Positions 20,802 to 23,495 of a DNA stretch of 64,000 nucleotides are shown one piece after another. This stretch comes from Methanococcoides sp. EBM-47 (GTDB lineage Archaea; Halobacteriota; Methanosarcinia; Methanosarcinales; Methanosarcinaceae). Below the pieces are notes generated by a model that saw only the letters and a program-made list of their open reading frames with translations, ran no database searches and was not told the origin of the DNA. The stretch is from assembly GCA_001896725.1 (NCBI GenBank), contig MPPA01000009.1:186001-250000 (forward strand), given 5' to 3'. Each line of letters begins with the position of its first letter. Within the stretch, counting starts at the first letter, position 1. The translations under genes were made by a program, and so were the position numbers.

Positions 20802-21203
20802 ATGAGACCTGAGCGTAAGATGGTGCTTTGCGAGAACGGCAATATAGTAATGAGGCAGATCGTCCTATCTTATAGAAAAGATAATGGGGAAGAGATCTTT
20901 TTACTGGACGCAGAAGCTGTGGTAGAGGAAAGGCCAAATTACCGGATCGCTGATGAGCTTTATAGGCGCATGGAAGAGAATTTCATAAATATTGGTTTGC
21001 TCAAAAGGGTGGATATGACCTTTATGAGCGATGATATGGTAAGGGAGCTCATACTGAAGAAGCATGAAAAGGAAGAAAGGTTCCTAAACGCTGGTGCAGA
21101 AAGAGGGTTCAAACTTGCAGATGACATAGATCCGGATGATATATTAAGGTTCTATGCTTCATTGACCCCTGAGGAGAGGACCCGGCTTAGCTGTAACCCT
21201 TGA
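20802..21203 (+). CDS. Conserved-looking hypothetical protein, charged
   Basis: The 133-residue soluble protein is rich in Glu, Arg and Lys and carries no membrane segment or signal peptide. GAGGT lies about seven bases before the ATG, which supports this start. I recognise no domain. The central region (about residues 45-95) is predicted helical with a Met/Glu-rich pattern, and the C-terminus (DDIDPDDILRFYASLTPEERTRL) looks like a short helical hairpin. It precedes the asparagine synthase-Dph6 fusion gene by about 108 bp on the same strand, so an operon is possible but not required. Confidence 0.75.
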   Translation: MRPERKMVLCENGNIVMRQIVLSYRKDNGEEIFLLDAEAVVEERPNYRIADELYRRMEENFINIGLLKRVDMTFMSDDMVRELILKKHEKEERFLNAGAERGFKLADDIDPDDILRFYASLTPEERTRLSCNP

Positions 21204-21311: not shown

Positions 21312-23495
21312 ATGTGCGGTATTACTGGTTTTTTTAACAGGGAGAATGCTGTTGAACTCACTATCAGAGCGTTGGGTATTTTGTCCTACCGTGGAAAGGA
21401 CGGTACAGGCGCTGCAGGGTCAGGCTGGGTGGAATATACGGATGTGCCTGAGAAACTATGCCTTCCATATGTGAACAATATCATTGGTCACGTCCGGCAT
21501 ACTAGGGCAAGTCCTACCAGACAGAGACAGCCTCTTGTTTACAAAGGCATCTTTGCATCTAATTGTGAGATATACAACTGGAAAGAGCTGGCAGCAACTT
21601 ATCGGATCGATGCTTCCAATGGTCCGGACCTGTTTGTAAAGCTCGTGGAGCAAAGGCTCCATGATGAAAATACAAATGCCTCTGATCCCATAGCAATAAT
21701 GCAAAATATCTGTGATGCTCTGGATCTGCTGCAGGGTGTGTATGCTTTCGCCTACTGGCTGGAGGATGTGGTTTATATTGCACGGGATATCATCGGTCTG
21801 AAGTCTCTATGGTATAGTTCTTCAAAGGGCTTTGCCTTTGCCTCAGAGAGAAAGGCACTGAAATCAGTAGGTTATACAGAAATAAAAGAGCTGGACCCAA
21901 GGGAGGTACTGGCGTATGATATCAGGAGTGGAACAGTGCATCGTTGCACCCGTGATTTCTTTTCCATTATACCGCAACATGAAGGTACTTTTGAGCAAAT
22001 TGCAGAACAGGTGCAACTGTTGCTGGAAAATGCTGTAAAGGTCCGTTTTCCTGATGAGCCTTTCGGGATACTGTTCTCGGGCGGCCTTGATTCTACTATC
22101 CTGGTCTATATGTGCAAGAAACTTGGAAAGATCCCAGGAAAGGACTTCAAATGTTACAGTGTCGGTCTCATGGGCATGCAGGAACCACCGGATATAGAAT
22201 ATGCTCGTTGGGTGGCACAGACATTGGGATTTACACTTGTGGTGCATCAGATAGATCTGGAACAGGTGGAAAAATATCTGAAAACTGTAGTACCCCTCGT
22301 GGAGGATACTAATGTTCCCAAAGTCGGGGTAGCGCTTACCATGTACGCCGCCTGCAAGGCTGCAATGGAGGATGGGATGCGTGTGATGTTCTCAGGCTCA
22401 GGTGCAGACGAACTGTTCGCAGGATACGACAGACATAAGCGTTCCACAGATATCAGCAGGGACAGTTATACCGATATTTTGAACATCTATAAGAAGAACA
22501 CATACAGAGACGATGTTGTGTCCATGTACCACAACATCGAGCTGTGTGTGCCCTATCTTGATAAAAGGCTCGTGGAATATGGTCTGAGGATACCTCCACA
22601 GTTCAAGATAAATGCTGCCGGGAATAAGCTCATCCTGCGCAGGGTCGCAGAGAAACTTGGTATACCTGCACAGTTCACATGGAGAAAGAAACAGGCTGCT
22701 CAGTATGGTAGCAGGTTCGATAAGGCCATAGATAAGCTTACTAGAAGAGCGGGATACAAGACCAAGACCGCTTACTTGGAACAGTACTATCATCCTGATC
22801 TGAAACTAGGGGTGTTGTTCAGTTCAGGCAAGGACTGTAATTATGCCATATACCTCATGCAGCAGCAGAGCTATGCCATTGAATGCCTGATCACCATAAA
22901 AAGCATCAATCCTGATTCCTATATGTTCCACACGCCCAATATCGACCTGGCACAATTACAGGCTGAGGCCATGGGTGTTCCTCTGATAGAGCAGATCTCC
23001 CAGGGTGAGAAGGAAACCGAACTGGAGGACCTGAAAAAGGCCATATACCGTGCCAAGCAGGAATTTGGTATCGAAGGAGTCATCACAGGCGCTTTGTACT
23101 CTAATTATCAACGGGAAAGGATCGAGCGGATATGCGACGAGCTGGGACTCAAAGTATTTTCGCCCTTGTGGCATATTGACCAGGAAAAAGAGATGAGGCA
23201 ACTGCTTGCCCTGGGCTTCAGGTTCATTTTCAGCAGTGTGGCAGCCTATGGCTTGAGCAGTAAATGGGTCGGGCGCATCATTACTGAAAACGATATCGAG
23301 CACCTGGTGAAACTCAATGAGAAGATCGGGCTCAATGTTGCCGGCGAGGGGGGAGAGTTCGAAAGCTTCGTAGTGGACGCACCTATGTATAAAAAGAGAA
23401 TAGAGGTCCGTGAATTCGAGGTGATCGAACTAGACGAATACACAGCTAAGGCCGTGATCACAGATGCAGTACTAGTGGATAAGGCAGATGAATGA
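21312..23495 (+). CDS. Glutamine-hydrolysing asparagine synthase fused to diphthine-ammonia ligase (Dph6)
   Basis: This 727-residue protein has three parts. Residues 1-210 form a class II glutaminase domain with nucleophile Cys2 (MCGITGF). Residues 220-470 form an asparagine-synthase-type ATP pyrophosphatase with SGGLDST (256-262) and SGSGADELFAGY (361-372). Residues 498-727 match Dph6, with SSGKDCN (504-510), GALYSNYQRERIE and the GEGGEFESFV signature. Dph6 amidates diphthine on elongation factor 2, the last step of diphthamide synthesis, and normally uses free ammonium. The fusion suggests glutamine as its nitrogen source. The glutaminase has NCEIYN where NGEIYN is usual. GGAG lies about eight bases before the ATG. 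It could instead be a two-function enzyme making asparagine too. Confidence 0.9.
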   Translation: MCGITGFFNRENAVELTIRALGILSYRGKDGTGAAGSGWVEYTDVPEKLCLPYVNNIIGHVRHTRASPTRQRQPLVYKGIFASNCEIYNWKELAATYRIDASNGPDLFVKLVEQRLHDENTNASDPIAIMQNICDALDLLQGVYAFAYWLEDVVYIARDIIGLKSLWYSSSKGFAFASERKALKSVGYTEIKELDPREVLAYDIRSGTVHRCTRDFFSIIPQHEGTFEQIAEQVQLLLENAVKVRFPDEPFGILFSGGLDSTILVYMCKKLGKIPGKDFKCYSVGLMGMQEPPDIEYARWVAQTLGFTLVVHQIDLEQVEKYLKTVVPLVEDTNVPKVGVALTMYAACKAAMEDGMRVMFSGSGADELFAGYDRHKRSTDISRDSYTDILNIYKKNTYRDDVVSMYHNIELCVPYLDKRLVEYGLRIPPQFKINAAGNKLILRRVAEKLGIPAQFTWRKKQAAQYGSRFDKAIDKLTRRAGYKTKTAYLEQYYHPDLKLGVLFSSGKDCNYAIYLMQQQSYAIECLITIKSINPDSYMFHTPNIDLAQLQAEAMGVPLIEQISQGEKETELEDLKKAIYRAKQEFGIEGVITGALYSNYQRERIERICDELGLKVFSPLWHIDQEKEMRQLLALGFRFIFSSVAAYGLSSKWVGRIITENDIEHLVKLNEKIGLNVAGEGGEFESFVVDAPMYKKRIEVREFEVIELDEYTAKAVITDAVLVDKADE

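Follow-up and report, generated by a model that had tools for sequence, protein, structure and literature searches.

For the enzymes studied, the nitrogen of diphthamide amidation is taken to come from ammonium. The window analysed here, a stretch of 64,000 nucleotides from Methanococcoides sp. EBM-47, contains a gene in which the diphthine-ammonia ligase Dph6 follows a glutaminase-like (GAT) and an AsnB-like domain in the same chain, which raises the question of whether diphthine amidation is here fed from glutamine, and what an AsnB-like domain does beside Dph6.

The gene (window 21312-23495, + strand) is a single frame of 727 aa with an ATG start and without internal stop, and was delimited by ORF, Pfam, NCBIfam and an AlphaFold model. 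It consists of a class II glutaminase-like domain with Cys2 present (residues 1-205, 21312-21926, +), an AsnB-like, i.e. synthetase-like, PP-loop domain (residues 225-492, 21984-22787, +) and a Dph6 domain (residues 497-724, 22800-23483, +). Pfam places GATase_7 at residues 62-184, a match to Asn_synthase (PF00733) that begins at residue 234 (173 bits), and Diphthami_syn_2 at 498-710 (233 bits against a cut-off of 23). The AlphaFold model of the whole chain, built from 42 relatives, is confident and possesses three domains (mean pLDDT 92.3, pTM 0.87). In Foldseek searches its first half matches E. coli AsnB (1ct9) and human ASNS (target TM 0.77), its AsnB-like domain also returns beta-lactam synthetase and carbapenam synthetase, and its C-terminal half matches Pyrococcus Dph6 (3rk1, target TM 0.94). 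One PP-loop occupies residues 256-261 (SGGLDS, 22077-22094, +) and a second one, inside Dph6, residues 504-510 (SSGKDCN, 22821-22841, +); in the latter, Cys509 is found in 2 of 42 fusions and Ser in 37. The original prediction of a GAT, an asparagine-synthase-type and a complete Dph6 domain in a single frame, with two PP-loop sites per chain, therefore holds. A frame of 133 aa without Pfam match (20802-21203, +) lies directly upstream of the fusion, and small frames of BLAST cluster c17 occur upstream of it in g1 and g5 relatives. The gene neighbourhood contains no diphthamide gene adjoining the fusion; dph5 is found on this contig at a distance of about 48 kb.

The Dph6 half passes the equivalog cut-off of TIGR03679 (Dph6_archaeal, NCBIfam) with 287.9 bits against 197.3, has the lowest dN/dS of the three domains, and carries E679, G680, G681, E682 and E684 (EGGEFE region), which are invariant in 42 fusions. 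It is 45% identical to the stand-alone archaeal Dph6 proteins PF0828 (3rk1) and PH1257 (2d13), both of which are single proteins without an AsnB-like half, and the EF-2-facing residues named in the 2012 paper described below are, by inspection, also present. The fusion is the sole PF01902 match in its own genome, which further encodes one Dph2, one Dph5 and one full aEF-2 with the diphthamide (HRG) histidine. It is likewise the only PF01902 match in 26 of 26 DPANN fusion genomes checked, and Dph2 is found in 32 of 32 fusion genomes. Because of this co-occurrence and the family membership (some genomes are incomplete), it is very likely that the Dph6 step is carried out by the fusion in the window genome and in DPANN.

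Two further observations concern the pathway in other genomes. The ANME-1 genomes G126-G129 (L171, L176, L185, L187) possess a fusion with degraded pocket together with at least one further, stand-alone PF01902 protein each (218-252 aa). In most of the DPANN fusion genomes G100-G123 (those of L148, L150-L153, L155-L158, L160, L163-L170, L172, L174, L179, L180, L189 and L195), Dph2 (PF01866) is present as two frames of about 90 aa (profile 1-60) and about 235 aa (profile approximately 62-285), and in a few of them a single piece was detected; a split Dph1/2 in DPANN has been reported earlier (Narrowe 2018, as cited in PMC6349945).

An architecture search across archaea returns a large family. 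The public genome collection contains at least 80 loci, of which at least 65 are complete fused frames in named genomes, and they span Methanosarcinaceae, many Woesearchaeota and other DPANN (Nanoarchaeota), Methanophagales (ANME-1) and one Altiarchaeote. Congeners carry full-length fusions at 75-83% identity. The relatives comprise genera with a fused gene (g1, g4, g5, g7, g9, g13 and g14), genera in which it is split into two adjacent genes (g3, with the same arrangement in the Methanococcoides records L154, L162 and L194, and g6) and genera with a different stand-alone Dph6 (g2, g8, g10, g11 and g12). In quick trees with SH-aLRT support only and without bootstrap, the fused AsnB-like domains group in a single clade (98) that excludes the AsnB references as well as the unfused Methanosarcinales relatives. 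The Dph6 domains of the fusions likewise group in a single clade (98), with L055 as its one unfused member. DPANN and Methanosarcinaceae are mixed in these trees, which suggests transfer between both groups. The unfused member (L055:4627-5505, genome G063, family f4) is a fused-type Dph6 with 56% identity to that of the window; no AsnB-like half was detected beside it at this locus, and it possibly represents a lost fusion.

The architecture is not new, as it has been known since 2012. An AsnB domain N-terminal to DUF71 (Dph6) was described for Methanohalophilus mahii, Methanosalsum zhilinae and Ca. Nanosalinarum (de Crecy-Lagard et al. 2012, PMC3541065), and its authors assigned GAT-II plus Asn_Synthase_B_C to the AsnB part and proposed that glutamine hydrolysis provides NH3 for both PP-loop domains. 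A reviewer raised the question of which PP-loop would consume this ammonia, and of the reaction that the AsnB-like domain carries out (PMC3541065). The part of that paper considered here makes no mention of the missing Arg49 and Glu348 residues. The described fusions and ours have the same order of three domains and homologous sequences, and two of the three organisms belong to the family of the window; the window protein keeps Cys2, unlike the Methanohalophilus relatives compared here, and adds a diverged loop and the loss of Asp98. Methanohalophilus, Methanosalsum and the window fall into one AsnB-like clade, and their groups are also together on the Dph6 half (quick trees, SH-aLRT), a pattern that indicates common ancestry with the 2012 fusions, as compared at genus level. 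Delivery of glutamine-derived ammonia to Dph6, the core of the original prediction, was thus already proposed in 2012 (PMC3541065); the fusion and the pathway behind it are real, but the delivery itself is weakened by the residue losses described below. In the literature searched we found no experiment on the fusion after 2012, no biochemistry for it and no test of the glutamine-supply proposal.

The account that we favour, tentatively and at somewhat less than even confidence, regards the AsnB-derived module as a dedicated ATP-binding accessory of diphthamide amidation in cis, which is no longer an asparagine synthetase. Dph6 would adenylate the diphthine carboxylate on EF-2, and ammonia would displace AMP. 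An intact glutaminase-like domain (Cys2, Asn74, Glu76 and Asp98, with GHxLHS for the Arg49 loop) would free this ammonia from glutamine or a related amide, and the AsnB-like PP-loop domain, in its ATP-bound state, would gate it or hand it on to Dph6, with no asparagine being formed. In proteins with a decayed glutaminase, the nitrogen for Dph6 would come from free ammonium, and the ATP-binding module would persist in a structural or gating role. We infer the amide donor, the ammonia transfer and the gating; what the sequences themselves provide towards this account is the single-copy Dph6, the pathway, the loss of asparagine-synthetase residues, the invariant ATP loop and the partial, coordinated erosion of the glutaminase site. 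Points against it include the missing Arg49 and the lineages that have lost Cys2 (see below), and the invariant ATP loop, which suggests a chemistry of its own that gating alone does not explain. Unfused AsnB-like relatives beside unrelated genes also show that the link of the module with Dph6 is not universal.

The ATP site of the middle domain is the constant part, which any mechanism has to account for. In the first PP-loop, S, the second G, D and S are conserved throughout the 98 fused or split relatives, including every one with a decayed glutaminase. The equivalent of AsnB Lys449 is kept in 97 of the 98, and the family signature around it, RKKQAAQYGS (residues 458-467, 22683-22712, +), was derived from 42 fusions, in which A462, A463, Q464, Y465 and S467 are invariant. 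In the main rival of the accessory account, unlikely in our estimate, the AsnB-like half would be a second ligase, one that adenylates or amidates a carboxylate of EF-2 or another protein, and Dph6 would be fused to it since both share the same target. An invariant ATP site combined with a changed aspartate pocket (see below) agrees with this idea. Beta-lactam and carbapenam synthetases are AsnB-derived enzymes that adenylate a substrate other than aspartate and have an inactive glutaminase; those of known structure (1jgt and 1q15) share only 15-20% identity with the window protein, and both are without Dph6. The AsnB-like TsrC, ScdTA and PesC amidate or nitrilate peptide carboxylates or C-termini (PMC13060819), and the position of GAT-less relatives beside gatA-gatB in four genomes suggests an ammonia-related job near translation. 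A second ligase, however, has no known target, stand-alone Dph6 proteins work without such a partner, and g8 and g12 genomes have the unfused AsnB-like protein away from Dph6.

Glutamine contacts of AsnB are Arg49, Asn74, Gly75, Glu76 and Asp98, together with Cys1 (PMC6748925, PMC11296641). Residues were counted across 98 fused or split relatives, which do not represent phylogenetically independent cases. Of these, 97 lack Arg49 (72 have Leu, within a GHxLHS motif), 74 have Cys for Gly75, and Cys2, Asn74 and Asp98 are kept in 79, 69 and 70, respectively, so that the glutaminase site (Cys2, Asn74) is retained in about 70% and eroded in the others. The set of Cys2, His(50) (after Leu) and Asn74 is complete in 68 relatives and entirely missing from 18, and Cys2 alone is present in ten; this pattern would fit a pocket that has changed, is in use wherever it is kept, and otherwise erodes as a whole. 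Methanococcoides, Methanohalophilus and some ANME-1 relatives have lost Cys2 with the rest of the protein retained, and the glutaminase is thus not essential to the common function.

In the window copy, the positions of Cys1, Arg49, Asn74, Gly75, Glu76 and Asp98 are occupied by C, R (in a diverged loop), N, C, E and G. The loop, GHVRHTRASPTRQRQP (residues 59-74, 21486-21533, +), differs from GHTLHSMVNFTRQP of the congeners in the DNA alignment by a 6-nt insertion, L62R and many replacements, and departs from the family consensus GHxLHS. Arg62 as a retained ancestral Arg49 was rejected as simplest reading, since Leu is present in every congener and the loop carries the insertion and many changes; it may be a chance reversion. 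NCEIYN (residues 84-89, 21561-21578, +), the equivalent of NGEIYN in AsnB, is present as predicted, but is the family consensus rather than a local oddity, with Cys in 74 of the 98 relatives. What makes the window copy unusual within its own family is the diverged Arg49 loop and Gly104 (21621-21623, +) at the place of Asp98, a glutamine contact that is Asp in 70 of 98 relatives. To judge from these comparisons, the family-wide loss of the Arg49 loop, the loss of Asp98 in the window and the loss of Cys2 in several fused lineages are stronger warning signs than NCEIYN. The glutaminase activity of the window copy appears doubtful. In the family at large, where the Arg for the alpha-carboxylate of Gln is missing, glutamine may not be bound.

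Selection differs in strength between the domains, as estimated by pairwise NG86 ratios, which are approximate with some dS >1: dN/dS is about 0.01-0.06 for Dph6 and 0.02-0.12 for the AsnB-like domain in most pairs, and about 0.1-0.3 for the glutaminase domain, which is thus under the weakest purifying selection of the three. Values are well below 1 everywhere, Methanohalophilus included, and purifying selection acts on all three domains. Decay of the AsnB-like half into a passenger, i.e. a scaffold without catalysis that persists mainly through its fusion to Dph6, is rather unlikely. The fast evolution of the glutaminase domain, the diverged pocket residues of the window (L62R, D104G), the first approximately 90 residues of a Methanohalophilus relative, where the model is without confident structure at residues 16-89, and the unfused Dph6 of many genomes would agree with such decay; the complete conservation of the PP-loop, the low dN/dS of the AsnB-like domain and the survival of its gene as a separate neighbour of Dph6 in split genomes (Methanococcoides, g6) speak against it. 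We attach still less likelihood to a class II amidotransferase with changed donor, in which GHxLHS in place of Arg49 would serve to take nitrogen for diphthamide synthesis from an amide other than free glutamine, and an ATP-bound, non-synthetic AsnB-like domain would control its transfer to Dph6.

Improbable to a like degree is a bifunctional protein, the N-terminal half of which is the ordinary glutamine-dependent asparagine synthetase of the cell, with ammonia or expression as the only thing shared through the fusion. The fusion is the sole full Asn_synthase-family protein of its genome, AsnA is absent from the same genome, the equivalents of Asp351 and Glu352 are kept besides the ATP loop and Lys449, and NH3 for both PP-loops was suggested by the authors of the 2012 paper (PMC3541065). 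With E. coli AsnB (1ct9) and human ASNS (6gq3) the window protein has in common Cys2, the PP-loop, and how its first two domains are folded and arranged; in contrast to both, its equivalents of Glu348 and Asp98 are replaced, as is the Arg49 loop throughout the family, and Dph6 takes the place of the C-terminal tail. Glu348 of E. coli AsnB (human Glu364) corresponds to Ser363 in the motif SGSGADE (residues 361-367, 22392-22412, +), and the residue census finds Glu at this place in 0 of 98 fused or split relatives (Ser in 44, Leu in 43, Ala in 7, other residues in 4), while all 22 unfused relatives carry Gln. Both human variants, E364A and E364Q, lack activity, and this position is described as conserved across known asparagine synthetases (PMC6748925); our own AsnB reference set is weak at this position, with Ala in 2 of 5 rows, and it is E. 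coli, the literature and the family contrast that carry the argument. Because of Ser363 and of a TIGR01536 (asn_synth_AEB, NCBIfam) score of 242.1 bits, under the cut-off of 267.1, the AsnB-like half appears not to be a canonical synthetase, as which the middle domain had originally been read; the first half is probably not an asparagine synthetase, and naming the fusion proteins so is probably wrong. Thr322/Arg325 were dropped as markers of the aspartate site, as other AsnB sequences also lack them, and so was Asp384 (of a Tyr-Asp pair), where the alignment between AsnB types is unreliable. Organisms with tRNA-dependent synthesis of Asn need no free asparagine synthetase. None of 60 relatives has an AsnRS protein above cut-off, and GatB is present in the genome of the window; Asn can therefore be formed on tRNA, without need of a free synthetase. 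The loss of Cys2 in several fused lineages also argues against bifunctionality. The last alternative, a frame or assembly error that joins two genes, could appeal to the two adjacent genes of some relatives and had been named as a possible refutation, but has next to no probability, given that the fused frame recurs in dozens of independent assemblies, some of them from isolates (Methanolobus, Methanosalsum, Methanohalophilus), and that both halves are under purifying selection.

Unfused AsnB-like proteins occur in two forms. GAT-less proteins of about 290-335 aa are located beside gatA-gatB in four genomes of family f2 (L116:4343-5278, L124:1752-2639, L125:4550-5557 and L126:2378-3343), with gatC between them in three; the nearby gatCAB genes were recognised by Pfam in L116 and by BLAST clustering in L124, L125 and L126. 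With Gln for Glu348 these proteins may not make free asparagine, and a link with Asp-tRNA(Asn) amidation is conceivable. Genera g8 and g12 possess an unfused GAT plus AsnB-like protein with TGQGADE (L109:4694-6226, L112:4642-6117 and L113:2565-4025). A neighbour of about 232 aa (cluster c2, PurQ-like by sequence) lies near it and also near the fusion in other genera, a hint at a locus shared by unfused and fused genes.

Glutamine-fed diphthine amidation by the fusion is possible. The fusion family is widespread and often provides the sole Dph6, which bears on whether archaea feed this amidation from glutamine. It also offers natural variants for comparison, in which the glutaminase is kept, decayed or split off. 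The question is thereby sharpened to the role that an AsnB-like domain with intact ATP loop, but without the Glu of the aspartate site, plays for Dph6.
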